From the NCBI GenBank assembly GCA_947170195.1, contig CAMVSS010000009.1:1-32444 (forward strand): 32,444 nucleotides of DNA. The letters are read 5' to 3'. Numbering within the stretch: the stretch's first letter is position 1; each line of letters begins with the position of its first letter. The position numbers were made by a program, and so were the translations under genes. The notes under the pieces are model-generated. The model did not search any database, was not told the origin of the DNA, and worked only from the letters and a program-made list of their open reading frames with translations. Source of the DNA: an uncultured Treponema sp. (GTDB taxonomy: Bacteria > Spirochaetota > Spirochaetia > Treponematales > Treponemataceae). Of the stretch, positions 1,055-23,068 are shown in pieces.

Positions 1055-3937
1055 TTGAAAAAAGTATTGGGTAAAAAAGTTTTTAAAAGACTCCGGTCTT
1101 CTGGGCTTGCTGTTTGTGCGGCTTTGCTTTGCGCAGGCTGCTCGATGGAAACGGATTCTGGAAACGGGCTTGCAGCTCTTATGCTGGCTTCGAATTCCGG
1201 TGCGCTTGCATCGGTTTCTGGTGAACAGACTCCGTCTTCTTCCTCGGATTCGAATGCAACTCAAGGCTCGGGAAAGAGCGCAAGTTCCAGCAGTTCTGCT
1301 TCTTCTGCGGTCGGTGCTGCTCCGACTGTGGCTGATGTGTCAAACACAAATGTAAAAATCGTAAAATCGGAAGGGTGGCTCAACAGCGCATACATCATCT
1401 TTGAGCAGGTAGAGGGGGCAACGTACAAGGTTCTCTGCGACGACAAGGAAATCGACGCTCCTCTCATCCGCTACTACGACACATACACTTACTACGAAAA
1501 CTCGGAAAGCAACGGTCAGACAGCTTGGACAAAAAAGACTCTTTCAAAGATTGTCCGCGCTGATGCACTTGGTCTTGCGGCTGGAAATCACACGATTAAG
1601 GTCTGTGCAGTCGGAACCGAGAACACGAGTGGATACTCGACCGCTACGATGAATGTCGTTGACCACGACAGGAGCGGATTTGCATTTGCGCCGAGCGCGA
1701 TTACGACGCCGGGTGCTTATAAGGCAGACGGAACTTTGAAGGACAACGCGATTGTCCTCTATGTGACAGGCGCGACTGCCAAGACTGTTTCTTATACAGC
1801 CAAAAAAGGAACGAACTCAAGCAAGGATGCAACATTCACTGGCTTGCAGGATGTTTTGAGTGAAACATCACTAAAAAACCTCACCGTTCCTCTTTGTATT
1901 CGCATCGTAGGAACAATCACAAAAGACCAGATGGATTCGCTCGGATCTTCTGCTGAAGGTGTGCAGATCAAGACGACTTCGGAAAACGGCGTTACGGTCG
2001 AAGGTGTAGGACACGATGCGGCAGTATACGGATTCGGCTTTCTTATCAGAAATGCAAAGTATACAGAACTCTGTAATCTCGGCGTGTTCAACTTTATGGA
2101 CGACGGAATTTCCGTTGATACGGACAACAGCTACCTCTGGATTCACAACAACGACATCTCTTACGGTGCAGTCGGCTCTGACTCCGACCAGGCAAAGGGA
2201 GACGGCTCGCTCGACTTCAAACTGTCAACTTACAGCACTCTTTCTTACAACCACTTCTGGGATTCCGGCAAGTGCAATCTTCTTGACGCTTCTCCTTCTT
2301 CTAGCGGTTCAAACTACCTTTCATACCATCACAACTGGTACGATCACTCCGATAGCCGTCACCCGCGCGTCCGCAACGCTACAGCCGTTCATGTCTACAA
2401 CAACTATTACGACGGTAACGCAAAATACGGTGTCGGCGTAACGAGCGGTTCTTCTGCATTCGTCGAAGGCAACTACTTCAGAAACGCACACGACCCTATG
2501 ATGCAGGCAGGACAGGGAACCGACGCGCAGGGAAGCGGAACATTCTCAGGTGAAGACGGCGGCGTCATAAAGGCATACAACAACAAGTTTGCTGGGAACA
2601 ACACAAACGGAGTCAAATTCCAGTTTGTAACGAACAAATACGACTACACGAACAATGTTGCCGTAACCGAGCCTCAGACTCATACGGAAAGCCTCGGAAC
2701 TGCAAATGATGACGGAACATACACAATCTACACTTGGGCATACGGAGATTCGTTCCCGTCATTCATTACGAAAAATGATGCTGCCGACAAAGGTGCAACT
2801 GATTCGACAAAAGCTTACTATCAGGTTTCAAAGGGAAAGACCGCATTCGCGCTTACAGTTCCTGCAAATGCAAGCAAGGTCGTAATCAAAGCCAAGTCTG
2901 CTTCGAGCGGTGTTTCATCTGCGACTCTCAAGGTCGGTGGCGTAAGCCGGTCCGTAACGGCAGACAACTATCCTGAATACGAATTCGACGTAAGCTCGGT
3001 TTCTTCTACTTCGCTTGCAGTCGTTGCAGGTTCGGAAGGCTCAATCAACATCACGTCAATCAAGGTCATCGCTCCGACAGCGTGGGAAACGACATACACA
3101 ACGGGAATTTCTCTAAGCGACATCGACGCATACGAAGTTGACGACCGCAGCACTCAGGTTCCTGGCACTGTGACTACAAAGCTCGGCGGAAACAAGTATT
3201 CAAATTTCGATGTTCAGCTCGGCGACAGCGGACTTGGACTTTCTGCGGCTCCGACCACACCTGACGTGGCAAAAGCAGATGTAATCAAGTATGCAGGCCG
3301 CCACAATCCGGACTTTGCCTACACATTCAACAATGCGACGGACGACGCTGACTACGGCGTGAACTCGGCACTCAAGGCACTTGTCGTCGGCTACACTGGC
3401 GGACTTTCGGCAGTTCAGGGAAGCAGTTCCGGCGCGTCGTCTGGCAATGCCGGTAACAGTGGAAACGCTGAAAGCGGCGAGAGCGGAAATGAATCTGGAA
3501 GCACTGGTACCGGAGAAAGCGGCAGCGCAGAAAACGGAGACAACGGCGGCACTTCTGGCGGAACGGAAACTCCGGCAACACTTCCAGAAGGAACTGTTGT
3601 CGTGACATTCGACAGCTTTACAAGCGGTGCTACCGTGAACGGCGTTACTGTAACGGGAAGCCTCAAAAGTGGTGTTGCTGAAAAAACTTATAATGGTACT
3701 ACTTACAAAACCGCTCTCAAGATGGAATCTAAGACGAGCATAACTTTTACAACAACCGAGGCAAAGACTCTTACAATTGTAACGGATACTGCTTCTAAAA
3801 AGATAAGCATAGATGGAACAAAAGTTTCCACAGATTCTGACGGAGTTGTAACTCAATCGCTTGCTGGTGGAGATCATACAATCTCAAAGGGCGATGCAAT
3901 GAATGTCTACGCAATCATAATCTCCCCGGCCGAATAA
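1055..3937 (+). CDS. Pectate lyase (PL1 family) lipoprotein, multidomain
   Basis: A secreted enzyme expected to cleave polygalacturonate by beta-elimination. The TTG start at 1055 is supported by AAAAGGGGG six bases upstream. Residues 1-29 form a lipoprotein signal (LLCAGC, lipidated Cys29), followed by a long Ser-rich linker (about 50-88). A beta-rich domain (about 95-205) precedes the parallel beta-helix (about 215-540). The PL1 hallmarks are present: candidate Ca2+ ligands Asp383 and Asp387 in GDGSLDFK, a SYNHF strand, and SRHPRVR (434-440), whose Arg435 and Arg440 match the spacing of the catalytic and substrate-binding arginines of PelC. After the helix come a carbohydrate-binding-like beta domain (about 580-680), a Gly/Ser/Asn/Glu-rich linker (about 790-850) and a C-terminal beta domain (about 850-960) of the kind often attached to pectinases. 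At 960 residues it is far longer than simple PL1 enzymes (350-450). It stands alone with its own regulatory region and terminator. Confidence 0.88.
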   Translation: MKKVLGKKVFKRLRSSGLAVCAALLCAGCSMETDSGNGLAALMLASNSGALASVSGEQTPSSSSDSNATQGSGKSASSSSSASSAVGAAPTVADVSNTNVKIVKSEGWLNSAYIIFEQVEGATYKVLCDDKEIDAPLIRYYDTYTYYENSESNGQTAWTKKTLSKIVRADALGLAAGNHTIKVCAVGTENTSGYSTATMNVVDHDRSGFAFAPSAITTPGAYKADGTLKDNAIVLYVTGATAKTVSYTAKKGTNSSKDATFTGLQDVLSETSLKNLTVPLCIRIVGTITKDQMDSLGSSAEGVQIKTTSENGVTVEGVGHDAAVYGFGFLIRNAKYTELCNLGVFNFMDDGISVDTDNSYLWIHNNDISYGAVGSDSDQAKGDGSLDFKLSTYSTLSYNHFWDSGKCNLLDASPSSSGSNYLSYHHNWYDHSDSRHPRVRNATAVHVYNNYYDGNAKYGVGVTSGSSAFVEGNYFRNAHDPMMQAGQGTDAQGSGTFSGEDGGVIKAYNNKFAGNNTNGVKFQFVTNKYDYTNNVAVTEPQTHTESLGTANDDGTYTIYTWAYGDSFPSFITKNDAADKGATDSTKAYYQVSKGKTAFALTVPANASKVVIKAKSASSGVSSATLKVGGVSRSVTADNYPEYEFDVSSVSSTSLAVVAGSEGSINITSIKVIAPTAWETTYTTGISLSDIDAYEVDDRSTQVPGTVTTKLGGNKYSNFDVQLGDSGLGLSAAPTTPDVAKADVIKYAGRHNPDFAYTFNNATDDADYGVNSALKALVVGYTGGLSAVQGSSSGASSGNAGNSGNAESGESGNESGSTGTGESGSAENGDNGGTSGGTETPATLPEGTVVVTFDSFTSGATVNGVTVTGSLKSGVAEKTYNGTTYKTALKMESKTSITFTTTEAKTLTIVTDTASKKISIDGTKVSTDSDGVVTQSLAGGDHTISKGDAMNVYAIIISPAE

Positions 3938-4121: not shown

Positions 4122-4153
4122 ACTCGTAATAAAAAATGAAAACGGAGATCACT

Positions 4154-5311
4154 ATGAAAATCTTGAAACTTCTTGCTGCATGTGCTGCAGCGGCTCTCGT
4201 CTTCTCTGGTTGTAGCGAAAAATCAGATGTAATCAAAATTGGTTCTATCGGACCTCTCTCTGGTCCTGTCGCCGTTTACGGTTCTGACTGCAAAAACGGA
4301 ATTGAACTCGCCGTATCAGAGATCAACGCTGCTGGTGGAATTAACGGAAAGCAGATTAAACTCATCGTCGAGGATGATGAAGGTGATTCTGTAAAATCTC
4401 AGAACGCATATCGAAAACTCGTAACCTCAGATAAAGTAAAATTTATCGTAGGTTCTTTGACATCAGGCTGTACACAGGCAATCACTTCTTTGGCTGAGGC
4501 TCAGGGCACTGTGCTTATCGCTCCTGCAGCAACCGCAGAAAGCATCACTATGTCTGAAAAGGGAACTCCTTTCCGCTATGTTTTCCGTGCTTGCTTTATC
4601 GACCCGTTCCAGGGAACTGTAGGTGCTAAATTTGCTTCTGAAAACCTCGGTTCAAAAAAGGCTGCCATCCTGTACGACATCGGAAATGACTATTCAGTAG
4701 GCCTTCAGGAGAATTTCGTAAAGACATTCGAAGCTGCTGGCGGAACAATTGTCGCAAAAGAGTCTTATAACACCGGAGATAAGGATTTCAACGCTCAGAT
4801 TACAAAAATCAAGAACGCAAATCCTGATGTAGTTTATCTTCCAGACTATTACGGAACTGTCGCTCTCATCGCAAACCAGCTCCGAGCACAGGGGGTAAAG
4901 GTTCCTTTCGTTGGGGGCGACGGTTGGGATGGTCTTACAGAGAATGCCGGTGACGAAGTTCTTAACGGCTTCTACTCAAACCACTATGCGGCTGACTCAA
5001 CTGATCCTGCCGTTCAGAAATTCGTAGCAACTTACAAAGAGAAATATACTCTCACACCAACTGCTTTTGCGGCTCTTGGTTATGATGCAGTCTACATGTT
5101 CAAGGATGCCATCGAGGTTGCTGCAAAGAAAGGCGATGTTACAGCTGATTCTGTACGCGATGCTCTTGAGGCAACTGACGGAACTTATGTTACAGGTCAT
5201 CTCACATTCAACGAGAAACACAATCCTGTAAAATCTGCCGTTATCGTAGAACTCATAAAAAATGCTGCAGGCAAACTTGATACGGTTTACAAGACTACTG
5301 TTAATCCGTAA
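4154..5311 (+). CDS. livK: Branched-chain amino acid ABC transporter substrate-binding lipoprotein (LivK/LivJ type)
   Basis: Extracytoplasmic binding protein that delivers a branched-chain or other amino acid to LivHM. The ATG at 4154 is preferred to the in-frame ATG at 4136, because GGAG (4144-4147) sits six bases before it and the protein then begins with a clean lipoprotein signal (FSGC, Cys20). The mature part is a periplasmic-binding fold type I (Peripla_BP_6). It opens with IKIGSIGPLSGPVAVYG and carries INAAGGINGKQIKL and the GSLTSGCTQAI ligand-loop region, all typical of LivJ/LivK. Length is 385 residues, normal for the family. It is the first gene of livKHMGF and is separated from livH by two hairpins, one a terminator-like attenuator. 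The true ligand cannot be deduced from sequence. Confidence 0.92.
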   Translation: MKILKLLAACAAAALVFSGCSEKSDVIKIGSIGPLSGPVAVYGSDCKNGIELAVSEINAAGGINGKQIKLIVEDDEGDSVKSQNAYRKLVTSDKVKFIVGSLTSGCTQAITSLAEAQGTVLIAPAATAESITMSEKGTPFRYVFRACFIDPFQGTVGAKFASENLGSKKAAILYDIGNDYSVGLQENFVKTFEAAGGTIVAKESYNTGDKDFNAQITKIKNANPDVVYLPDYYGTVALIANQLRAQGVKVPFVGGDGWDGLTENAGDEVLNGFYSNHYAADSTDPAVQKFVATYKEKYTLTPTAFAALGYDAVYMFKDAIEVAAKKGDVTADSVRDALEATDGTYVTGHLTFNEKHNPVKSAVIVELIKNAAGKLDTVYKTTVNP

Positions 5312-5330
5312 AATATAAGAATGAAAGTTG

Positions 5331-5351
5331 GCTCCCGAAATCACCGGGAGC
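5331..5351 (+). repeat. Intercistronic stem-loop after livK
   Basis: GCTCCCG (5331-5337) and CGGGAGC (5345-5351) pair perfectly around a 7-base loop. No T-run follows. It lies between the livK stop and the attenuator, so a likely role is to protect the 3' end of the livK message. Confidence 0.6.
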
Positions 5352-5372
5352 TAAAGAAATTGATTGCAATGG

Positions 5373-5409
5373 AGCACGATTCTTTTTTCAGGAAGCGTGC
5401 TTTTTTTTT
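5373..5409 (+). terminator. Intra-operon terminator/attenuator between livK and livH
   Basis: AGCACG (5373-5378) pairs with CGTGCT (5396-5401), extended by an inner TTC/GAA after a mismatch, and runs straight into nine T (5401-5409). The livH ribosome binding site begins two bases later. Partial termination here would make more livK than livHMGF mRNA. Confidence 0.75.
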
Positions 5410-5423
5410 GAAAAGGAGTCGCT

Positions 5424-6320
5424 GTGAATTTCATAACCTTTTTTCAGCAGCTGATAAACGGGCTTTCCCTTGGCAGCATTTACGCCCTGATTGCCCTTGG
5501 TTACACAATGGTTTACGGCATCGTCAAGCTGATTAACTTTGCACACGGCGATGTAATGATGGTCGGAGCTTACGCAGGATTTTTTGTACTCGTTGCTCTT
5601 GGTGTTTCTCCTGCAGGTCTTGTGTGTGCTTTTATCGCCGCAATGACGGCATGTGCTTTTTTGATTCTTATTATTGAGCGTGTCGCTTACCGTCCGCTTC
5701 GTGCGGCTCCGCGACTCAACTCTTTGATCACTGCGATTGCAGTTGAACTTATCTTGCAGAATACTATGCGCGTCCTTCCGTTCGTAGGTCCGAATCCGCG
5801 CCAGTATCCTCGCATGGCTCCTCTTGAATTTCATCTGGGAGCTATTTCAGTTTCGAATATTCAGCTTGTAGTAATAGTTTTGAGCGCAATACTGATGATT
5901 CTTCTCAACTATATCGTAAACTACACTAAGACAGGAAAGGCAATGCGCGCCGTTTCTTTTGATCTCGGAGCCGCAAGCCTGATGGGAATCAGCGTAAACA
6001 AGACGATCGCCATCACTTTTGTGCTCGGTTCCGTGCTTGCGGGTGCTGGCGGCGTTCTCTACGCGACGGCTTATCCGCAGATTGATCCTGTCATGGGATA
6101 TATTCCTGGTCTTAAGGCATTCGTTGCTGCCGTACTCGGTGGAATCGGTTCGATTCCTGGAGCTGTGGTCGGAGGAATCATCCTCGGAATCGCAGAGACT
6201 ATGGCAAAAGCTTATATTTCTTCTCAGTATGCGGATGCAATTTCGTACTGCATTCTGATTGTTATCCTGCTCGTAAAACCTGCCGGTCTTTTGGGCAAGA
6301 AGACTCACGTAAAGGTATAA
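5424..6320 (+). CDS. livH: Branched-chain amino acid ABC transporter permease LivH
   Basis: One of the two membrane subunits of the importer. The GTG start at 5424 follows AAAAGGAG (5411-5418). The 298-residue protein is almost wholly hydrophobic with about eight membrane spans. It carries family signatures: an N-terminal LINGLSLGSIYALIALGYTM, then VKLINFAHGDVMMVGAY, and near the C-terminus PGLKAFVAAVLGGIGSIPGAVVGG, the cytoplasmic loop that contacts the ATPases. Length is normal for LivH. It is followed 12 bases later by livM. Confidence 0.93.
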   Translation: MNFITFFQQLINGLSLGSIYALIALGYTMVYGIVKLINFAHGDVMMVGAYAGFFVLVALGVSPAGLVCAFIAAMTACAFLILIIERVAYRPLRAAPRLNSLITAIAVELILQNTMRVLPFVGPNPRQYPRMAPLEFHLGAISVSNIQLVVIVLSAILMILLNYIVNYTKTGKAMRAVSFDLGAASLMGISVNKTIAITFVLGSVLAGAGGVLYATAYPQIDPVMGYIPGLKAFVAAVLGGIGSIPGAVVGGIILGIAETMAKAYISSQYADAISYCILIVILLVKPAGLLGKKTHVKV

Positions 6321-6332
6321 TGGGGGCTAGAG

Positions 6333-7313
6333 ATGAATAAATTTTGGAGACAAACTTCTATATTAATCGGAATTTCTGCCTTCTGTATCGTCATTCCTTT
6401 TTTTCTGATAAAAACTGGTCTCATCAACGGTTATGTTGCCGGAATTTTGACGCTCGCCGGGCTTAATGCGCTCATGGCTCTCAGCGTCAACATGGTCTGC
6501 GGAATCACAGGTCAGCTCAGTCTCGGTCAGGCATGTTTCGAGGCAATCGGGGCATATTCGACCGTGCTTCTCTGGCAGAAAGGCATTCCGCTTCCGCTCT
6601 GCATGATTTTCGGGGCTGTTTCAGCGGCTTTCTTTGGCTTCCTCATCGGATTCCCGACTTTGAAGCTCGAGGGTGATTATCTTGCTATAGTTACGCTTGC
6701 GTTCGGAGAAATTACGCGCGTCGTGCTCATGAATTTAAAATCAGTTACGAACGGACCATACGGAATGAAGTGCACGACTTTCTTTACCGTCGATTTTTCA
6801 TGGGGACCATCTCTTTCATTCGTGCTTGTAATCGCGTCATTGATTTTAGTGATTACCGGAATTCAGAATTTTATCCGCTCGTCTTATGGCCGGGCAATTC
6901 TTGCAGTCCGCGAGGACGAGATTGCCGCCAACTCGAACGGAATCAGCGTGTTCAAGTACAAGATGATAGGCTTTGTAATAGCTGCGTTTGTGGCTGGAAT
7001 TGCCGGAAGTCTCTATGCGCCGATCATCGGTTATTTTAAGCCGGATCTCGCCTCGTTCAACAACAGCATCAACGATTTGATTTTCGTCGTTCTCGGAGGA
7101 ATGGGAAGCGTCACAGGCTCTGTCCTTGCGGCTTTTGTCCTTACATCGCTTCAGGAATTCCTGCGCTTCCTCGGAGATTTCAGAATCCTGATCTATGCAG
7201 TTCTTCTGATTGTCGTAATGCTTTTCAGACCACAGGGCTTGCTTGGCATGAAAGAATTCTCATTCATCAGAGCATTTGAAAAAATCATTCCTTTCAAAAA
7301 AGAGGTCCGCTAA
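6333..7313 (+). CDS. livM: Branched-chain amino acid ABC transporter permease LivM
   Basis: Second permease subunit, partner of LivH. The ATG at 6333 is preceded by TGGGGG (6321-6326). The 326 residues hold about nine to ten membrane spans with LivM signatures: LSVNMVCGITGQLSLGQACF, the KLEGDYLAIVTLAFGEI segment, and the ATPase-contact loop NDLIFVVLGGMGSVTGSVLAA. It overlaps the livG start by one base (TAATG at 7311-7315), indicating translational coupling. Confidence 0.93.
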   Translation: MNKFWRQTSILIGISAFCIVIPFFLIKTGLINGYVAGILTLAGLNALMALSVNMVCGITGQLSLGQACFEAIGAYSTVLLWQKGIPLPLCMIFGAVSAAFFGFLIGFPTLKLEGDYLAIVTLAFGEITRVVLMNLKSVTNGPYGMKCTTFFTVDFSWGPSLSFVLVIASLILVITGIQNFIRSSYGRAILAVREDEIAANSNGISVFKYKMIGFVIAAFVAGIAGSLYAPIIGYFKPDLASFNNSINDLIFVVLGGMGSVTGSVLAAFVLTSLQEFLRFLGDFRILIYAVLLIVVMLFRPQGLLGMKEFSFIRAFEKIIPFKKEVR

Positions 7314-8116
7314 TGAAACCGAATAAACTGATTTTAAAAGCTTGTGACATTTCCATCGTTTTTGGCGGACTTCAGGCTGTAAGCAACTTCAACATGGAGC
7401 TGTATGAAGGTCAGCTTGTCGGTCTTATCGGCCCGAACGGAGCTGGAAAAACTACGGTCTTCAATATGCTTTCCGGAGTCTACACGCCGACGTCGGGAAC
7501 GATCACTTTCATCGATAAAAAGAAAAATTCATATCTCGTTAACAAGAAAAAGCCGTACAGACTGAATAAAATCGGTATTGCGCGCACGTTTCAGAATATC
7601 CGACTTTTCGGAAACCTCACCGTCGCCGACAACATTCGCGTCGCAATGCACTCAAAGCGAAAGAGTGGCGTAATCGCTGCCATTTTGCGCCTGCCTGCAT
7701 ATTTCCGTGACGAGGCTCACATGAACGCGCGCGTCGGTCACCTTCTGAAACTTTTCGGGCTTACGGCGAAGCGCAATGAGCTGGCAAAAAATCTGCCGTA
7801 TGGAGAGCAGCGCAAGCTTGAGATTTGCCGCGCTCTTGCCTCAAATCCTCGGCTGCTCCTTCTTGATGAGCCTGCTGCCGGCATGAATCCTCAGGAAACA
7901 AAAGAGCTGATGGATTTGATCGCTCTCATCCGAAACCGCTTCAAGCTTACGATTCTTCTGATCGAACATGACATGAAGCTGGTAATGGGAATCTGCGAGG
8001 AAATCTACGTTCTCAACTACGGAAAAGTTCTTGCCGTCGGAAAGCCGGAAGAAATTCAGAAAAATCCCGAAGTCATTAAGGCATATCTTGGCTCGGATGC
8101 GGAGGTGCTCTCATGA
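7313..8116 (+). CDS. livG: Branched-chain amino acid ABC transporter ATP-binding protein LivG
   Basis: Cytoplasmic ATPase that forms a heterodimer with LivF and powers import through LivHM. The 267-residue protein has Walker A GPNGAGKTT (40-48), the LivG-type signature LPYGEQR (161-167) in place of the usual LSGGQ, Walker B RLLLLDEP (180-187) and the switch His in LIEHDM. The ATG shares its A with the last base of the livM stop codon, and its own stop overlaps the livF start (ATGA, 8113-8116). Confidence 0.94.
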   Translation: MKPNKLILKACDISIVFGGLQAVSNFNMELYEGQLVGLIGPNGAGKTTVFNMLSGVYTPTSGTITFIDKKKNSYLVNKKKPYRLNKIGIARTFQNIRLFGNLTVADNIRVAMHSKRKSGVIAAILRLPAYFRDEAHMNARVGHLLKLFGLTAKRNELAKNLPYGEQRKLEICRALASNPRLLLLDEPAAGMNPQETKELMDLIALIRNRFKLTILLIEHDMKLVMGICEEIYVLNYGKVLAVGKPEEIQKNPEVIKAYLGSDAEVLS

Positions 8117-8820
8117 TGCTTGAAGTAAAAAATCTGGTGGTGAATTACGGAGCAATCCGCGCTCTCAAGGGCATAAATTTTAATGTCGAGAAAGGCGAGA
8201 TCATCTCTCTGATCGGATCGAATGGTGCTGGAAAGACTACGACTCTGCACGCCCTTTCTAACCTTATAAAAAAGACTGATGGTCAGGTTACTTTCAACGG
8301 CGAGGATATCACCGATCTTTCGCCGAATCATATCGTGGAGCGCAGGTTGATTCAGGTGCCGGAAGGCCGCCGCATTTTTGCGAATATGAGCGTAAAAGAA
8401 AATCTTGAGATGGGTGCTTTTTCGCGCTCGGACAAGGCCGGAATCAAGGCTGATATGGAGCATGTCTTTGAGCTGTTCCCTCGCATGAAGGAACGCGTCC
8501 GCCAGCTCGCCGGAACTCTTTCTGGTGGCGAACAGCAGATGCTTGCAATGGGACGTGGGCTTATGTCCAAGCCTGATCTTTTGCTTCTCGATGAGCCGAG
8601 CATGGGTCTTGCCCCGATCCTCGTTGACGAAATCTTCGAGATCATAAAAAAGATAAACTCGGAGGGAACCACAATCCTCCTCGTTGAGCAGAACGCATAC
8701 AAGGCGATGAGCATTGCGAACCGCGTCTACATCCTTGAGACTGGAGAAGTGACCGGAAGCGGCATCGCCCAGGATATGATAAAAGATCCTTCCGTTCAGA
8801 AAGCTTATCTCGGTGGCTAA
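8113..8820 (+). CDS. livF: Branched-chain amino acid ABC transporter ATP-binding protein LivF
   Basis: Second ATPase subunit. The 235-residue protein has Walker A GSNGAGKTT (35-43), signature LSGGEQQ (136-142), Walker B LLLLDEP (156-162) and the LivF-specific LLVEQN, where Gln takes the place of the switch His. GGAGGTG (8101-8107) precedes the start. ATG at 8113 and ATG at 8116 are both possible, and the first gives the usual 4-base overlap with livG. No terminator follows: the next gene begins only 12 bases after the stop, so the transcript probably continues into the sensory genes. Confidence 0.94.
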   Translation: MMLEVKNLVVNYGAIRALKGINFNVEKGEIISLIGSNGAGKTTTLHALSNLIKKTDGQVTFNGEDITDLSPNHIVERRLIQVPEGRRIFANMSVKENLEMGAFSRSDKAGIKADMEHVFELFPRMKERVRQLAGTLSGGEQQMLAMGRGLMSKPDLLLLDEPSMGLAPILVDEIFEIIKKINSEGTTILLVEQNAYKAMSIANRVYILETGEVTGSGIAQDMIKDPSVQKAYLGG

Positions 8821-8831
8821 AAGGCAGTTTT

Positions 8832-9749
8832 GTGAAGAATCGTGCGCCTGCTTTTTTTTCAGCACTGTTTTTCTCTTTTTGCCTTTTTGAGTCGTGCTAT
8901 TTGCCGGGAAGGGAAGTGAAAAAATCTGCTCCCAGAACAAAAACGATGGTTCTCCGGCTCGCCGAGCAGTCGTCGAAAACAAATCCTCAGTCGCGCGCAA
9001 GCGAATATTTTGCTAAGCTCGTGAATGAGGAATCTGACGGAAAAATCAGCATAAAAGTGTATTGTGACGGCTCGCTCGGAAACACTGAGCAGGTGATAGA
9101 GCAGCTTCGTTTTGGCGGAATCGCGCTCGGAAGAATTGGTTTTGCCGAGCTTTCGGAGGCGGTTCCTGCCATAAAGCCTTTCACCGAATCTGTGATAACG
9201 CAGACGTCCACCTGCCATGACAAAATCGTGCAGAATCTTGATTTTATCTCCAACAGCTTCCAGGCCGAAAAACTTTATCCGCTGTCGGTTTTTTATCCAG
9301 ATACCAGGTGTTTTTATACGGATTCCCCGAAGTATTTTTTTTCGTCCGCCATGATCTTTCGGGGGGTAAAAATCGGTACGGTCTCAAGCTCAATCGTTCA
9401 TGACATCCTGAAAAAATACGGGGCGATCCCGGTTGATGTAATTTCGGCTGACAACTATCAGTCCATGCAAAAATCTTACCTTAATGTCGTGGATTCTGAT
9501 TTGTGCGATTTTTTGATGGGCAGCGACTATCGCTTTGCACGCTACGTTATGCTCAGCGACTACATTTCTAATCCGAAAGTGCTCGTCATAAGCAACGAGG
9601 TTTGGAGCCATCTTTCAATCGAGCAGCAGAAAATCATGCGCGAATGTGCCGAAAGAACCGTCGCCTATCAGCAGGCTTTGATGACCAGATTTTATACCGC
9701 CAATCTTCCTGAAGTAAAAAAACAAAAATCCCTTCTTTATTTGGATTAG
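8832..9749 (+). CDS. TRAP (DctP)-like binding lipoprotein, probable sensor component
   Basis: A 305-residue exported protein of the DctP/TRAP solute-binding family. The GTG start at 8832 follows AAGG (8821-8824). A lipoprotein signal ends at LFESC (Cys22). The mature part aligns without gaps to the neighbouring DctP around the domain hinge (FRGVKIGTVSSS here, LKGLKMRTNGMD in DctP). However, the conserved ligand-carboxylate Arg of TRAP binding proteins (Arg177 in the neighbour) is Gly182 here, and the DGQEN motif is not kept (region NVVDSDLC). It is followed 15 bases later by a histidine kinase and then a response regulator, not by permeases. I infer that it is a ligand- or partner-sensing subunit for the kinase and not a transport protein. 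A degenerate transporter component is the alternative. Confidence 0.75.
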   Translation: MKNRAPAFFSALFFSFCLFESCYLPGREVKKSAPRTKTMVLRLAEQSSKTNPQSRASEYFAKLVNEESDGKISIKVYCDGSLGNTEQVIEQLRFGGIALGRIGFAELSEAVPAIKPFTESVITQTSTCHDKIVQNLDFISNSFQAEKLYPLSVFYPDTRCFYTDSPKYFFSSAMIFRGVKIGTVSSSIVHDILKKYGAIPVDVISADNYQSMQKSYLNVVDSDLCDFLMGSDYRFARYVMLSDYISNPKVLVISNEVWSHLSIEQQKIMRECAERTVAYQQALMTRFYTANLPEVKKQKSLLYLD

Positions 9750-9764
9750 TCAGGGGGAGGATGC

Positions 9765-11294
9765 ATGAAGATTCTGCGGACTTTTTTCTTTTCTATCGGA
9801 AGACAGATTTTAGCTCTTCTCGCCCTTCTTCTCATTCTCTTCCTGTGCTTTTTGGCTTTTAACCGCCGGACCCTTTCTTTTTTTATAGACACTTACGAAA
9901 AGCAGACTGTAAGGCTCGATTCGATTCAGACACTCAGAAATCAGTTTTTTGACGGAAATACTTATTTTGCTGATTTTTTGAAGACAGGAAACAGAGCTAG
10001 TCTTGCCGAATTCAACCAGTCTGCGAACAAATCTTTCGATCTGATTTCGGAGATCGTGGAGGAACTGCACACCGACGACGGAGTTTACCTTTTGAGAAGT
10101 ATCGAGACAGGTTTTTCGTTTTATTTTTCGCAGTGCTGCCAGGCTTCTTTTTCGTTCTCAACTAAAAATTATGAAGACTCGTTCGGATATTACGGTCAGT
10201 TTCAGTATGCGCAATCAGTTCTAAACTACCTGCTCAAATATTGCGACGAGCTTCTGGAGATGGTGATTGCCGAAAACAAAATCACCTACGGGAAAATGAC
10301 TCAGAAAGAGCAGGTGCTCAACGTTTACAACGTGGTATTTGTTTCTCTGCTGATATTGTTCTACCTTTCTTTCCTTCTATATATATCAAAGAAGCTGACG
10401 TCTCCGCTTTCTCAGCTCGTCAGGTTCTCAAATTATGTCGCGGACGGAGATTTTTCCCACCGGATCCCTGAGTACAAGACGGCGAATTCTGTCGGCGTTC
10501 TGATCCATGCGTTTAACAAGATGTGCACCGATTTGCAGCGTATGATGGATTCCCTCAAGGAGACTGTAAAAACGGAAGAAAAACTTTTGAGGGAGCAGCG
10601 AAAAAATCTTGAGTACAAGGAGCTTTTGAATCAGGCGAATTTTCTGGCGCTTCAGAGTCAGACGAACCCGCACTTTCTTTTCAATACGCTCAACTCAATC
10701 TCTCGTACGATAACGCTTGGAAAAAGCGAGCAGTCCCTTGAGATGATTGATTGTCTTTCCGACCTGTTGCGGTACAGCCTTTCGGAAGCCGAGATTCCTG
10801 TCGAGCTGGAGAGCGAGCTTAACGTTTCTGAGGAATACATACACATCCAGCAGCTGAGGTTTGGCGAGAGAATCAAATACGTCGAGAAAGTCGAAGAGTC
10901 GCTCAGAACGGAAGTCCGGCTTCCAAAATTTACGCTTCAGCCTCTTATCGAAAACGCTATAATTCACGGACTTGAGCCGAAAGAGGGCGGGGGAATGGTC
11001 GTCCTGAGCGCAAAAAGGCGCGGAAAATATGCGGTCATCAGGATTTTTGACAACGGAAATGGAATTCCGAAATCAGTGCTTGAGCAAATCGCTGGCAAAA
11101 AATATGAATCAAAAAAGGGAAGGATCGGCGTGCTGAACACACAAAAGCGTCTTGAGCTGCACGAGAAATCTTCCAAAAAAGTTTTTTCAATCATCAGCCG
11201 TGAGGGTAAATGGACAAGGATTTCAATCAGGCTTAAAATAAAGAGCGTCTCAAAAGACAGAGGAAAAAATGTACAGACTCCTGTTGGTAGATGA
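9765..11294 (+). CDS. Sensor histidine kinase, YesM/LytS type with HAMP domain
   Basis: Membrane kinase of a two-component system. A GGGGGAGG box (9753-9760) precedes the ATG. The 509 residues comprise a first membrane span (about 13-32), an extracytoplasmic helical domain (about 35-185) with no recognised ligand domain, a second span (about 187-207), HAMP (about 208-262) and a coiled linker. The His_kinase domain follows, with phosphoacceptor His303 in QSQTNPHFLFNTLNSIS. The HATPase domain has N-box LIENAIIHG (394-402), DNGNG (429-433) and GRIGVLN (452-458). All catalytic motifs are intact. The helical sensor domain looks suited to reading a protein partner such as the lipoprotein encoded just upstream. 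The 3' end overlaps the response-regulator gene by 26 bases. Confidence 0.9.
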   Translation: MKILRTFFFSIGRQILALLALLLILFLCFLAFNRRTLSFFIDTYEKQTVRLDSIQTLRNQFFDGNTYFADFLKTGNRASLAEFNQSANKSFDLISEIVEELHTDDGVYLLRSIETGFSFYFSQCCQASFSFSTKNYEDSFGYYGQFQYAQSVLNYLLKYCDELLEMVIAENKITYGKMTQKEQVLNVYNVVFVSLLILFYLSFLLYISKKLTSPLSQLVRFSNYVADGDFSHRIPEYKTANSVGVLIHAFNKMCTDLQRMMDSLKETVKTEEKLLREQRKNLEYKELLNQANFLALQSQTNPHFLFNTLNSISRTITLGKSEQSLEMIDCLSDLLRYSLSEAEIPVELESELNVSEEYIHIQQLRFGERIKYVEKVEESLRTEVRLPKFTLQPLIENAIIHGLEPKEGGGMVVLSAKRRGKYAVIRIFDNGNGIPKSVLEQIAGKKYESKKGRIGVLNTQKRLELHEKSSKKVFSIISREGKWTRISIRLKIKSVSKDRGKNVQTPVGR

Positions 11295-12024
11295 TGAAAA
11301 GCTGGAGAGAGATGCGCTTTCTCTTTTTGTAAAAAAGTCCTTCCTGAACGGCAAGATTTCTCAGATAGAAGAATGCGCGTCCGGCTCGGAGCTTATAAAG
11401 AAGGTCCCTGATTTTAATCCTGACATAATCGTGCTGGACATAAACATGCCTGCCCTCAACGGCCTTGATGCGCTCAAAAAACTGAGGGAGATTGGTTGCG
11501 GTGCCGTGGTCATAATCTCGTCGGCATACAATCAGTTTGATTATGCTGTCACGGCGATGCAGCTCGGCGTAATCAATTTTCTGGTAAAGCCTGTAAAAGA
11601 GACGGTTTTTATCGATGCGCTTGCCCAGGGTGTTTCCATGCTCGAAAAATCAGATGGAAAAACTCATAAGGAAGATTCTTCGGAAGCTGTGGCAGATGCT
11701 AAAAAAATGCCAGAGAGCATGCAGAAAGTTTGCCGCTATATCGAAGAAAATTATCAGAAGCAGATTCAGCTCGATGATATCGCTGATTACTGCGGATACA
11801 GCCGCTATCACTTGTCGCACATGTTCCGGGATGTGTCCGGCTTTACGGTTTTCAGCTATCTCCTCGAAGTCAGAATGAAAAAAGCGAAGGAGCTGCTTAA
11901 GACCACGAACCTGAGCATAAAAGAAATCAGCGCGGAAATCGGTTTTACAGACCAGAACTATTTTTCGAACGTCTTCAAGAAGCAGACGGGGCTTTCCCCG
12001 ATGGATTTTCGCAATAATTTCTAG
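11269..12024 (+). CDS. Response regulator, REC plus AraC-type DNA-binding domain
   Basis: Cognate transcription factor of the upstream kinase. The 251-residue protein has a receiver domain with acidic pocket Asp8/Asp9, phosphoacceptor Asp57 (VLDINMP) and Lys107 (LVKPV). After a charged linker (about 125-145) comes an AraC/XylS domain with two helix-turn-helix units: LDDIADYCGYSRYHLSHMFRD, then IKEISAEIGFTDQNYFSNVFK. It ends with the family tail TGLSPMDFRNNF. The start at 11269 lies inside the kinase gene with AGAGGA just upstream. YesN-type regulators usually control an adjacent transporter, here most simply the TRAP genes starting 110 bases downstream. Confidence 0.92.
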   Translation: MYRLLLVDDEKLERDALSLFVKKSFLNGKISQIEECASGSELIKKVPDFNPDIIVLDINMPALNGLDALKKLREIGCGAVVIISSAYNQFDYAVTAMQLGVINFLVKPVKETVFIDALAQGVSMLEKSDGKTHKEDSSEAVADAKKMPESMQKVCRYIEENYQKQIQLDDIADYCGYSRYHLSHMFRDVSGFTVFSYLLEVRMKKAKELLKTTNLSIKEISAEIGFTDQNYFSNVFKKQTGLSPMDFRNNF

Positions 12025-12133
12025 AAACTCAACAATTTCCTATAGTGTGAGATTCAAATTCCGCCCTTAGAATTAAAATGCGTTGAAAAATTATCCGAAA
12101 GTTTTATTCGGCTTAATTCAAAAAGGAGGAATT

Positions 12134-13153
12134 ATGAAAAGAATTATCAGCGCAGCCCTGGCAATAAGCTGCATTTTTATGATTGCCGGCTGCAACAAAA
12201 AGGACGCTTCAACAGCATCTGAGGCTGCTAAAAAGGTGTACACGATGCAGATCGGTCACGCCCAGCCAATCGACAACCCTCGTCACGTTTCTCTTGAGAC
12301 TTTCAAGAAGATTGTAGAAGAAAAAACCAATGGCGGCATCAAGGTAGAGATCTATCCTGCCGGCCAGCTTGGTACAGAAAAGGAAATGCTTGAGCAGACT
12401 TGTTCCGGCGTTATTCAGGGATTCCGCGGTGGTCAGTTTGACTTCCTGCCGAAACTTTTGATTTTCTCTCTCCCGTTCCTTACGGAGAATTCTGATGAAA
12501 TCACCCGCCTCATGAGCTCGGATTTTGCAAAAGAGGTTTGTAAGGATTCTCAGAAAGACGGAGCTATCATCCTCGGTCTCGGCGATGCGGGCGGCTACCG
12601 TCAGTTCTCTAACGGAAAACACCCGATTACAAAACCGGATGATCTCAAAGGTCTCAAAATGCGAACTAACGGCATGGACACAATCGACAAGACATTCAAG
12701 GCTCTCGGTGCAAGCACTGTTTCTGTTCCGTATAATGACCTTTACATGGCTCTCAAAACTGGCGTTGCTGACGGTCAGGAAAATCCGTGGGTAAACGTAA
12801 CTGGAATGAAATTCTACGAGGTTCAGAAATACTTCACGGATATCCGCTATCAGTTCCATCCGGATCCATTCTATGTAAACGTCGAGTGGTTCAACTCGCT
12901 TCCGGCTGAATATCAGCAGGTTATCCGCGATGCTACTGACGAGATGTTCAAAGTAAACAATCAGAAGATTGCCGACATGCAGAACGACGCTCTTGAGACA
13001 ATCAAGAAGAATGCCGAGGTTTACACCCTTACACCGGCTGAGCGCGAAGCATTCAAACAGGCAACGGAAGTCGTCTATGATCAGTACCTCAAGGAAGGTC
13101 GCCTCACACAGGCTGAGCTCGACACGATGCGTGCTATCGTAGCCGGAAAATAA
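12134..13153 (+). CDS. dctP: TRAP transporter substrate-binding lipoprotein DctP
   Basis: Captures an organic acid or related anion for the DctQM permease. The ATG at 12134 is chosen over the in-frame TTG at 12083, because AAGGAGG (12123-12129) precedes it and the product then begins with a lipoprotein signal (IAGC, Cys20). The 339-residue protein has family motifs intact: LKGLKMRTNG with the carboxylate-binding Arg177, and VADGQENPW (211-219). Length is normal. It is followed by a strong hairpin and then dctQ and dctM. The leader (12025-12133) has a short inverted repeat CCGAA/TTCGG (12095-12111) but no convincing promoter that I can name. Confidence 0.93.
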   Translation: MKRIISAALAISCIFMIAGCNKKDASTASEAAKKVYTMQIGHAQPIDNPRHVSLETFKKIVEEKTNGGIKVEIYPAGQLGTEKEMLEQTCSGVIQGFRGGQFDFLPKLLIFSLPFLTENSDEITRLMSSDFAKEVCKDSQKDGAIILGLGDAGGYRQFSNGKHPITKPDDLKGLKMRTNGMDTIDKTFKALGASTVSVPYNDLYMALKTGVADGQENPWVNVTGMKFYEVQKYFTDIRYQFHPDPFYVNVEWFNSLPAEYQQVIRDATDEMFKVNNQKIADMQNDALETIKKNAEVYTLTPAEREAFKQATEVVYDQYLKEGRLTQAELDTMRAIVAGK

Positions 13154-13176: not shown

Positions 13177-13220
13177 TCGGCAGCATATTCAGCAAAAAGA
13201 GCATGCTGCCGATTTTTTTT
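13177..13220 (+). terminator. Intra-operon terminator/attenuator between dctP and dctQ
   Basis: TCGGCAGCAT (13177-13186) pairs perfectly with ATGCTGCCGA (13203-13212) around a 16-base loop and is followed by eight T. It should stop most transcripts after dctP and leave a fraction to read into dctQM, matching the layout between livK and livH. Confidence 0.85.
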
Positions 13221-13244
13221 GATGACGAAATAGGTGAGGTAAAA

Positions 13245-13754
13245 ATGAACGGTTTAAAAAAAGCAGGCTCAATCCTGTACAAGATATATCTTTCGATAGG
13301 TATCGCTTCCATTGCCGTTATGACATGCTGTGTTATTTTTGCGGTAATTGCGCGATATTGCTTTGGATTTTCGCACAAATCCCTTGAGGAATTCATCACG
13401 ACGGTCTTTGCGTTCAGCACGTTCTGGGGAATCGGAATCTGTTTTATCGAGAACGAGCATGTCACCATCAATTCAATCTTTGATATGTTCCCTAGGAAGT
13501 TTCAGATTTGTGCAAGTTTCTTCAATTATATCGTGACGCTCTGTGTTCTTTTTGTGATGATGAAATTCGGTGCGCACTATGCACTTAAATTTGGTTCTCA
13601 GATTTCATCGGGAATGGAAATCCCTTACATCTATATGTACGGAATCATTCCGGTCGGATGTTTCCTCGGAATTATCTGCGTGCTGATAAAACTTATAGGC
13701 TTTGTGGAATCTTTGTTCTGCCCGGCAGAAAATCCTGCCGTTAAGGAGGCGTAA
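13245..13754 (+). CDS. dctQ: TRAP transporter small permease subunit DctQ
   Basis: Small membrane subunit that joins DctM to form the importer. The ATG at 13245 is preferred to an in-frame TTG at 13203, which lies in the terminator stem; AGGTGAGG (13232-13239) precedes the chosen start. The 169-residue product has four membrane spans (about 12-36, 48-66, 86-108 and 124-148), with the DctQ-typical ARYCFGFSHKSLEEF after span 1 and FWGIGICFIENEHVTI between spans 2 and 3. It ends 2 bases before the dctM start codon. Confidence 0.9.
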   Translation: MNGLKKAGSILYKIYLSIGIASIAVMTCCVIFAVIARYCFGFSHKSLEEFITTVFAFSTFWGIGICFIENEHVTINSIFDMFPRKFQICASFFNYIVTLCVLFVMMKFGAHYALKFGSQISSGMEIPYIYMYGIIPVGCFLGIICVLIKLIGFVESLFCPAENPAVKEA

Positions 13755-13756
13755 TC

Positions 13757-14992
13757 ATGGCAATGGTAATTCTTCTTTTGTTTCTTGTTGTTTTTGCTGT
13801 ATTGGGAACGCCTCTTGCTTTCTCCATCGGTGCTTCATGTCTTTCTTATATTCAGATTTATGCTCCTAATTTCATGCAGATGCTGCCGCTGTTCATGCTC
13901 GCCGGTGAGCTGATGAACCGGGGCGGTATTACCCAGCGAATCGTTGATTTCAGCATGTATCTTGTCCGACCTATTCGCGGCGGACTTGGTGAGGTCAATG
14001 TAATCGGAAGCATGATTTTTGGCGGAATCTCAGGCTCGTCTGTTGCTGACACGTCTGCTTTGGGATCAATACTGATTCCTGCGATGGAAAAAGAGGGCTA
14101 TCCGTCCAATTTCTCTGCCGGTGTAACGGTCGCGTCATCAACAATGGGAATGATTATTCCTCCGAGCGTACCTATGATCGTCTACGCTATGGTTTCCGGG
14201 GAATCAGTCGGAAAACTCTTTATCGCGGCTCTTATTCCAGGAATTTTGATCGGTTTTTCCCAGCTCCTGATTGTATTCATCATCTCAAGAAAAAAAGGCT
14301 ATCATCCTGAAAAAACTGAGTTTGATGCAAAACATTTTGTCCACACTATGCTGTACGGACTTCCTGCGGTATTGATGCCTGTCGTAATCGTCGGATTTGT
14401 AAGCTTTGGTGTTTGCACTGCAAGCGAATCTGCCGGAATTGCCGTTTTGTATGCAATCTTGATCGGATTTTTCTTCTATCGCGAGCTGACACTGAAAGAT
14501 GTTTTGGACAGCCTCAAGCGAACGCTGATTTCTTCCAGCTCGATTATGATTATCATCGGATTTACCACAATCTTCACATGGCTTCTGACGATGGCGAATG
14601 TTCCTGCTACAATCGCAAACTTCTTCCTCGCGCTGAATCTTCCGCGGGCCGGATATGCGCTTTTGTTCGATGTGATCATTCTTTTCATCGGTACTTTCAT
14701 CGATGTATCACCTGCAATTCTGCTCCTCTCACCGATTTTGCTTCCTGTAATGAAGAGCGTCGGAATCACAGGGCTTCAGTTTGGTGCGATGATGATTACA
14801 GGTCTTGCCATCGGACTCGTAACACCTCCTGTCGGAATGTGTCTGAACGCTTGTACAAAAATCAACAAGATGCCGATCATTGACATCTTCAAGGGTGCGC
14901 TTCCGTTCATAGTCTGCAACCTGATCGTTCTGATTTCAATCAGCGTGTTCCCGGTTCTTACGACATGGCTTCCTCAGTTCATTTCGTACTGA
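13757..14992 (+). CDS. dctM: TRAP transporter large permease subunit DctM
   Basis: Main transport subunit, using an ion gradient (normally Na+) to import the DctP-bound solute. AAGGAGG (13743-13749) precedes the ATG. The 411 residues form about 11-12 membrane segments with family signatures: PLFMLAGELMNRGGI, IFGGISGSSVADTSALGSI, the ASSTMGMIIPPSVPMIVYA loop, and GLAIGLVTPPVGMCLN near the C-terminus. Length is slightly below the usual 425. It is the last gene of the cluster and is followed by a terminator. Confidence 0.94.
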   Translation: MAMVILLLFLVVFAVLGTPLAFSIGASCLSYIQIYAPNFMQMLPLFMLAGELMNRGGITQRIVDFSMYLVRPIRGGLGEVNVIGSMIFGGISGSSVADTSALGSILIPAMEKEGYPSNFSAGVTVASSTMGMIIPPSVPMIVYAMVSGESVGKLFIAALIPGILIGFSQLLIVFIISRKKGYHPEKTEFDAKHFVHTMLYGLPAVLMPVVIVGFVSFGVCTASESAGIAVLYAILIGFFFYRELTLKDVLDSLKRTLISSSSIMIIIGFTTIFTWLLTMANVPATIANFFLALNLPRAGYALLFDVIILFIGTFIDVSPAILLLSPILLPVMKSVGITGLQFGAMMITGLAIGLVTPPVGMCLNACTKINKMPIIDIFKGALPFIVCNLIVLISISVFPVLTTWLPQFISY

Positions 14993-22072: not shown

Positions 22073-23068
22073 TCAGTTTTTCAGCGTCCGGATTTCCTGT
22101 ATCAAATCTTCGTAGCCTTTTCCGTATTTTTCGTAGAGCGGCTGGATTTTTTCTTCAAATTCTTTTTTCTGCTCAGGAGTGTATTTGATCACGGTATTTC
22201 CGCTGTCCATGACGAATTTTTCCGAGCTGCTTTCTTTTTTTGCCCACTGTTCGAATTCAAAAGCCTGAGTTTTGGTTGCGCAGCTTTTTATTATCGCTAT
22301 GTATTTTTCGTCCAGGGATTTCAGGCATTCCGTTGATGCGACAAGTATGTCCGGAATGCGGGCGTGCTCATCGAGATTGTAGTATGGCGCGGCAAGATAG
22401 TCGCCCATTGATTCATAGGTCGGCCAGTTGTTTTCCGCGCCGTCTATTATTCCGTTGAGAAGATTCGTGTAGACATTCGCCGTTCCGATGTCCGTTATGC
22501 CGATGCCGCCCAGAAGCTCGACCATTTCTATCATCATCGGGCTGTCCATCACGCGGATCCTCATATTCTGCATGTCGGATATAGAGTTGATTGGCTTTTT
22601 CGTATAGAACGAGCGCACCCCTGAGTCGTAGAAACAAAGCCCCATAAGTTTCGGCTCTTCTTTTTCGATGCTGGTGAGGAAAAAGTTTCCGATTTGTCCT
22701 GTGAGAACCGCTTTCATGTGCGATTCGTCGCGGTAGAGGAACGGCAGCTGCAGGATATTCATTGATTGAACGTATTTTGTCAGTGGCGAGCACGATACTC
22801 TTGCAAAAGCGATTTCGCCTTTCTTTAGCGCTTCGAGAGCTTCGCTTTCGGTCTGATAAAGCTCGCTTCCGCTGTGAACTTCAATATTGATTTTTCCGCC
22901 AGTCCGAGCTGATACGAGGCGGGCGAACTCATAGTCTGCCTGTGTGGTCGGGTATCCCTCGATGTGAACTTCCGACAAGATCAGCGTTGTCGTTTTTTTA
23001 TTGCAGCCGGAAAACATAACAACAGCGAGGGAAATAATAACAGAAAATAGAATCTTTAACCATTTCAT
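22073..23068 (-). CDS. Orphan TRAP transporter substrate-binding lipoprotein (DctP family)
   Basis: A 331-residue exported binding protein. The signal peptide ends in FSGC (Cys22). Unlike the sensor-like homologue at 8832, it keeps the ligand-binding Arg172 in MRIRVM and an IDGAENNWPTYES motif, so it should bind an anionic ligand. No dctQ or dctM gene lies nearby; it must work with a permease encoded elsewhere or serve sensing. The start ATG (23068-23066) has no visible Shine-Dalgarno sequence, and a promoter-like pair lies so close that the leader would be only a few bases. It is transcribed divergently from the DUF3943 gene. Confidence 0.88.
   Translation of the reverse strand: MKWLKILFSVIISLAVVMFSGCNKKTTTLILSEVHIEGYPTTQADYEFARLVSARTGGKINIEVHSGSELYQTESEALEALKKGEIAFARVSCSPLTKYVQSMNILQLPFLYRDESHMKAVLTGQIGNFFLTSIEKEEPKLMGLCFYDSGVRSFYTKKPINSISDMQNMRIRVMDSPMMIEMVELLGGIGITDIGTANVYTNLLNGIIDGAENNWPTYESMGDYLAAPYYNLDEHARIPDILVASTECLKSLDEKYIAIIKSCATKTQAFEFEQWAKKESSSEKFVMDSGNTVIKYTPEQKKEFEEKIQPLYEKYGKGYEDLIQEIRTLKN

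Follow-up and report, generated by a model that had tools for sequence, protein, structure and literature searches.

The window, by which we mean the whole analysed stretch of 32,444 nt from an uncultured Treponema sp., probably encodes a three-component system that works like XylFII-LytS-YesN, with a sensor from the family of the TRAP transporter binding proteins. "Works like" and not "is" is the appropriate wording, since the sensor belongs to PF03480 and the transporter is DctQM. Most likely, the extra binding protein is devoted to nutrient sensing and controls uptake genes. The genes were found where the initial annotation had placed them, with a kinase and an AraC-type regulator directly after the lipoprotein and no permease between them (Table 1). 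The conserved gene order, the homology of the kinase ectodomain to LytSN and a conserved element before dctP lend good support to the proposal made there that a DctP-family protein acts as the sensor of a three-component system.

Table 1. Features of the sensor-kinase-regulator unit and of the adjacent TRAP transporter genes (positions in the window)
Feature	Position	Strand	Remarks
Sensor lipoprotein, DctP family	8832..9749	+	GTG start, 305 aa, lipobox Cys22, C-terminally truncated
Arg159 codon, retained first clamp Arg, equivalent to IseP Arg156 by alignment	9306..9308	+	invariant in sensors and DctPs
Gly182 codon, replaces the selectivity-filter Arg, equivalent to SiaP Arg147	9375..9377	+	Gly in 6/6 orthologues
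Sensor histidine kinase, 509 aa	9765..11294	+	His_kinase PF06580, HATPase_c, HAMP (Pfam)
Kinase ectodomain, about residues 37-186, LytSN-type four-helix bundle	9873..10322	+	Foldseek, VIA, sequence profile
Response regulator, YesN-like, 251 aa	11269..12024	+	receiver (Asp57) and AraC-type HTH (Pfam)
Conserved element TATAGTGTGAGATTCAAATTCC, proposed regulator site over the dctP -35 region	12041..12062	+	5/5 loci
-10-like TAGAAT	12068..12073	+	17 nt after GTGTGA; read from sequence
DctP, transport solute-binding protein	12134..13153	+	PF03480, 260 bits; Arg and DGQEN
DctQ, small permease	13203..13754	+	PF04290
DctM, large permease	13757..14992	+	PF06808, TIGR00786

The PF03480 match of the sensor (E 2.5e-27) lies with 96.4 bits above the curated cut-off of 23.4 and covers profile positions 2–257 of 286; the neighbouring DctP reaches 260 bits. 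In a BLASTP comparison these two proteins are 20% identical, and the gap-free alignment reported earlier is seen in the C-terminal half of the matched region. A recent duplication of the neighbouring DctP is ruled out as the origin of the sensor by this low identity and by their placement in separate clades, the latter based on quick trees with long branches. Therefore, the annotated "former transport protein" has to be understood as a member of the DctP family of older origin and not a recent copy of the neighbour.

A search of 196 genomes of the same genus yielded five more sequences clearly nearer to the sensor than ordinary DctPs (35–53% identity; E ≤3e-50; next 2e-28). Cys22 is invariant across these orthologues and all reading frames are intact. 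No orthologue was found beyond the genus in the order or phylum samples, which are samples and not complete sets, and a scan of genome contigs gave distant DctPs only. Between diverged loci the sensor is 35–55% identical, compared to 70–88% for DctP, and hence is the faster-evolving protein, several of the genomes in these comparisons being incomplete. With a dN/dS of 0.12 in the closest pair, the gene is nevertheless under purifying selection and not decaying. Structure prediction from the six sequences gave a mean pLDDT of 45.

Five complete loci (that in the window, L039, L041, L042 and L043) share the order sensor, kinase, regulator, gap, DctP, DctQ, DctM. The sensor gene is present in all of them, and the first three genes overlap or lie at most 20 nt apart. 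The contig of L040 stops at the sensor gene, hence the sixth orthologue is without a complete locus; there (L040:1-3003) an MCP gene is located about 10 nt before the sensor orthologue. The genome, 74% complete, yielded no DctP orthologue. The genes upstream of the sensor vary by locus (an SDF symporter gene, a divergent gene with a ribosomal-protein-S4 domain, others), and dctPQM is the sole constant neighbour of the sensor-kinase-regulator unit among the sampled loci. In the window, a branched-chain amino acid-type ABC operon (SBP, LivH, LivM, LivG, LivF) occupies positions 4136-8820.

In TRAP binding proteins, the acid group of the ligand is held by two Arg and one Asn, which in IseP are Arg156, Arg177 and Asn217 (PMC11668362). 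Both residue changes noted initially could be reproduced. The sensor stretch 'GVKIGT', containing Gly182, aligns with 'GLKMRT' of DctP, and the position of 'DGQENP' reads 'NVVDSD', so that a DGxEN motif is unrecognisable. The clamp Asn is likewise lost in the sensors, which carry Ser, Gly or Ala at position 222, and Pro at 120, invariant elsewhere, is missing. Judged by the alignment, half of the carboxylate clamp persists, with Arg159 kept and the second Arg and the Asn lost. Residue 221 is still acidic and, together with the retained Arg159, weakens the simple inference of a non-acidic ligand.

It had been suggested to examine if the Gly is fixed wherever the kinase is adjacent. The Gly is present in six out of six orthologues, and no orthologue keeping the Arg was found. 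Of the DctP-family rows in the alignment, 75 have a residue at this site, which is Arg in 68 and Gly in seven, namely the six sensors and L119_6886; every transport DctP adjoining a sensor orthologue keeps the Arg. L119_6886 (L119:6886-7902) is a DctP-family protein with intact DGAEN and without a permease beside its gene. As a second sensor it was rejected, because it keeps this motif, groups with transport proteins and adjoins a mannitol-dehydrogenase-like gene.

Tp0957, a TRAP binding protein of Treponema pallidum, works with a TPR protein. No TPR match was found in the neighbouring proteins scanned here, and Tp0957 was not among the best 60 PDB matches listed for the sensor. It is also a DctP-family member without the Arg, with Ala there instead of the Gly of the window sensor (PMC4646407). 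An equivalent of Arg147 occurs in 96.8% of 6142 members (PMC4646407) and is thus a common trait of the family but not a strict criterion, as 3% are without it. In SiaP, high-affinity binding is lost in R147A and R147K, whereas closure around the ligand persists in R147A (PMC4646407).

The C-terminus provides another distinction. Beyond position 298, the five complete sensors have 7–9 residues, all other complete family members sampled at least 37; about 30 C-terminal residues are absent from all complete sensor orthologues. The equivalent segment of IseP is part of domain II (PMC11668362), the complete C-terminal segment of which the sensor lacks.

The phospho-acceptor of the kinase is His303, in PHFLFN. 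Its two hydrophobic segments (6-41 and 183-211) leave about 145–150 residues outside the membrane, and the model of the N-terminal region, built with 31 homologues, is an all-helical four-helix bundle (mean pLDDT 86), in line with the helical extracytoplasmic domain of 150 residues annotated before. Its best domain match in Foldseek was 5xsj_L, the LytSN of the XylFII-LytSN complex (TM 0.92 of the target, 1.3 Å), and VIA-align superimposed all 122 residues on this LytSN (Z 19.9, 1.1 Å). The ligand-binding bundles of McpS and PcaY have a similar fold (Z 15–18), McpS with succinate or malate reaching Z 18.0 at 1.5–1.6 Å. Since helical bundles match easily, the sequence test is important beside the fold. 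With a profile of 31 kinase sequences, LytSN was the first PDB match (E 6e-12, residues 48–179), and so it was with the profile of the window clade alone (E 5e-9). PcaY was matched by the order-wide profile only (E 2.5e-9, residues 95–258) and was absent with the window-clade profile, which found no directly ligand-binding ectodomain in the PDB; most of the remaining good matches covered mainly TM2-HAMP. Fold and sequence profile together lead us to regard the ectodomain as a homologue of LytSN. A docking footprint, in the form of conservation concentrated at its membrane-distal tip, was not evident.

Twelve further kinases from the same order, related in their N-terminal regions, were inspected. 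The kinase gene of ten of them is directly preceded by a Peripla_BP_4 gene, often with an overlap of the two (L180-L183, L185-L187, L189-L191). In the eight loci scanned for both copies, this upstream protein scores 43–98 bits, compared to 138–198 bits for the one after the regulator. The arrangement Peripla_BP_4-HK-RR-Peripla_BP_4 is the layout of XylFII-LytS-YesN, and the window system therefore looks like the same layout with a TRAP-type sensor. L180-L191 also point to many apparently uncharacterised XylFII-LytS-like systems in the order. Kinases with related ectodomains are often found, too, in HK-RR-DctP-DctQ-DctM clusters that lack an additional binding protein; these were retrieved by searching for such genes and hence give no frequency.

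A different situation was observed in L122-L127, six loci of one family. Here the regulator is followed by an extra gene of the DctP family (overlapping it by 4 nt in three of the six; the other three ORFs are overlong as called), after which comes another DctP-family gene, mostly with DctQM. The extra protein keeps the Arg and, save one exception, DGxEN, and in the quick trees it groups with kinase-linked transport proteins, the second binding protein coming from elsewhere in the tree. This is apparently an independent split of binding proteins into sensing and transport, with the binding residues kept.

XylFII-LytS-YesN of Clostridium beijerinckii, which senses D-xylose (PDB 5xsj, 5xsd), shares with the window the LytSN ectodomain, by fold and sequence, a regulator with YesN-type receiver and AraC-HTH, and a sensor binding protein beside the kinase in addition to a second one with the transporter. 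However, it combines a Peripla_BP_4 sugar sensor with an ABC transporter, instead of a PF03480 sensor with TRAP DctQM. Moreover, half of the clamp is lost in the window sensor, and its complex with the kinase is putative. Regarding dicarboxylate sensing in Bacillus subtilis, DctB is a DctP-type protein, and the kinase DctS belongs with CitA and DcuS, not with LytS. The kinase of the window is a PF06580 kinase with a LytSN ectodomain and thus differs from DctS, the CitA/DcuS-type kinase that goes with DctA. In DctB-DctS-DctR an extracytoplasmic co-receptor, there for C4-dicarboxylates, is needed by the two-component system, as proposed here, although the partner transporter is DctA and not DctPQM (PMC6978683). 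CuaD-CuaS-CuaR of Ruminiclostridium cellulolyticum, responding to cellobiose, has a second binding protein dedicated to sensing, together with a kinase and an AraC-type regulator by which the transporter operon is induced, in the same layout as in the window; unlike the window sensor, CuaD is an ABC-type sugar-binding protein with known ligand (PMC10384115). CuaDSR and XylFII-LytS are precedents for binding-protein sensing by a two-component system (PMC10384115).

The gap before dctP carries TATAGTGTGARATT or a close variant in all five loci, which would link the regulator to the transporter. In a shuffle test with the four diverged loci, none of 500 shuffles matched the conservation of this element (maximum 47, observed 52). 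The copy in the window is the sole exact match in its own genome, and none turned up ahead of the sensor gene. In 5/5 loci a TAG precedes the element at a distance of 21 bp (12022-12024 in the window) and is the regulator stop codon in three of them; this spacing would suit tandem AraC-type half-sites. TTAGAAT or TTACAAT is present at three loci. The TAGAAT of the window may be regarded as a putative -10, and the element would then overlap the -35 region of dctP. The most plausible candidate for binding the element is the regulator.

From these data the following model can be drawn. The lipoprotein would be tethered outside the inner membrane, where it would dock on the LytSN-type kinase ectodomain. 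Binding of a small molecule akin to the transported substrate is the most likely event to change the docked lipoprotein and thereby the kinase, which would then phosphorylate the AraC-type regulator. The latter might bind the element before dctP and presumably switch on dctPQM. Because the equivalents of Arg147 and Asn187 are missing, the ligand may be held differently. Counting for the model are direct observations, namely the family memberships, the conserved gene order, the homology of the ectodomain to LytSN, the loss of residues and of the C-terminus, purifying selection and the conserved element, as well as the Peripla_BP_4 analogues and the precedents CuaDSR and XylFII-LytS. Counting against it, the four-helix bundle is a widespread fold, and bundles that bind ligands directly reach similar scores, as McpS with Z 18.0. 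Sensor and kinase could also be mere neighbours without contact.

Both a neutral ligand and an adaptor role of the sensor are possible. As an adaptor, a degenerate, ligand-free lipoprotein would dock on the LytSN ectodomain and report the loading or abundance of DctP or DctQM. Such a role would fit a protein that evolves faster than DctP and in which Pro at 120, the C-terminal part and the counterparts of Arg147 and Asn187 have been lost. We consider it unlikely, as Arg159 and the acidic residue 221 are kept, R147A SiaP closes around its ligand nonetheless (PMC4646407), and characterised sensor binding proteins of the same layout do bind ligand, CuaD with a KD of 20 nM (PMC10384115). Direct sensing by the kinase bundle, as by McpS and PcaY with organic acids, would leave the lipoprotein to sharpen the sensitivity or make it dispensable. 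R. cellulolyticum CuaSR indeed perceives cellobiose without CuaD (PMC10384115), and McpS is close in fold; the best sequence match to LytSN, the missing hits to directly ligand-binding ectodomains with the window-clade profile and the retention of the sensor gene in all complete loci make this quite improbable here.

Two further readings concern transport. A family member encoded near a DctQM pair might be a second receptor bringing a different substrate to it, which is very unlikely for a gene grouped with the kinase instead of dctPQM, whose product is without both the Arg required for high-affinity transport in SiaP (PMC4646407) and the C-terminal segment of domain II. Finally, the lipoprotein might be part of the upstream liv-type operon and co-sense its substrate: the gap between livF and the sensor GTG is just 12 nt, and the + strand from 8600 to this GTG showed no sigma-70-like site. 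Yet this arrangement is not conserved at the other sensor loci, where the upstream gene differs and only dctPQM is constant, and there is hardly any likelihood left for it.

Under the preferred model of a dedicated TRAP-family sensor, the LytSN ectodomain, solved in complex with a sugar-type binding protein, is indicated to sit with TRAP-type binding proteins, too. In the literature searched, no paper was found that combines TRAP transporters with LytS/YesN-type three-component sensing. The selectivity Arg has undergone a natural, fixed change in a protein that no longer seems to serve transport, so that the part played by this residue in signalling could be tested separately from that in uptake. 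If the adaptor reading were true, the system would sense transporter activity through a degenerate binding protein.

DctP-family genes without permease were also seen beside other signalling genes. They adjoin chemoreceptor (MCP, Cache) genes in L134:88-3225, L133:8031-11160 and L048:3784-6896, in addition to L040:1-3003 mentioned above. On another contig (C55) of the genome of the window (L045:2799-6379), two tandem DctP-family genes, with the motif AEQP instead of ENxP and without a permease, overlap the gene for a GGDEF protein; a binding-protein-controlled diguanylate cyclase is possible there. The window itself holds a further DctP-family protein (22073-23068, - strand; 222 bits) with the Arg kept and no DctQM beside it, flanked by a ketoacyl-synthase gene and a DUF3943 gene. 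The product of 1055-3937 resembles pectate lyases and carries a CBM77 module, which suggests the use of pectin.
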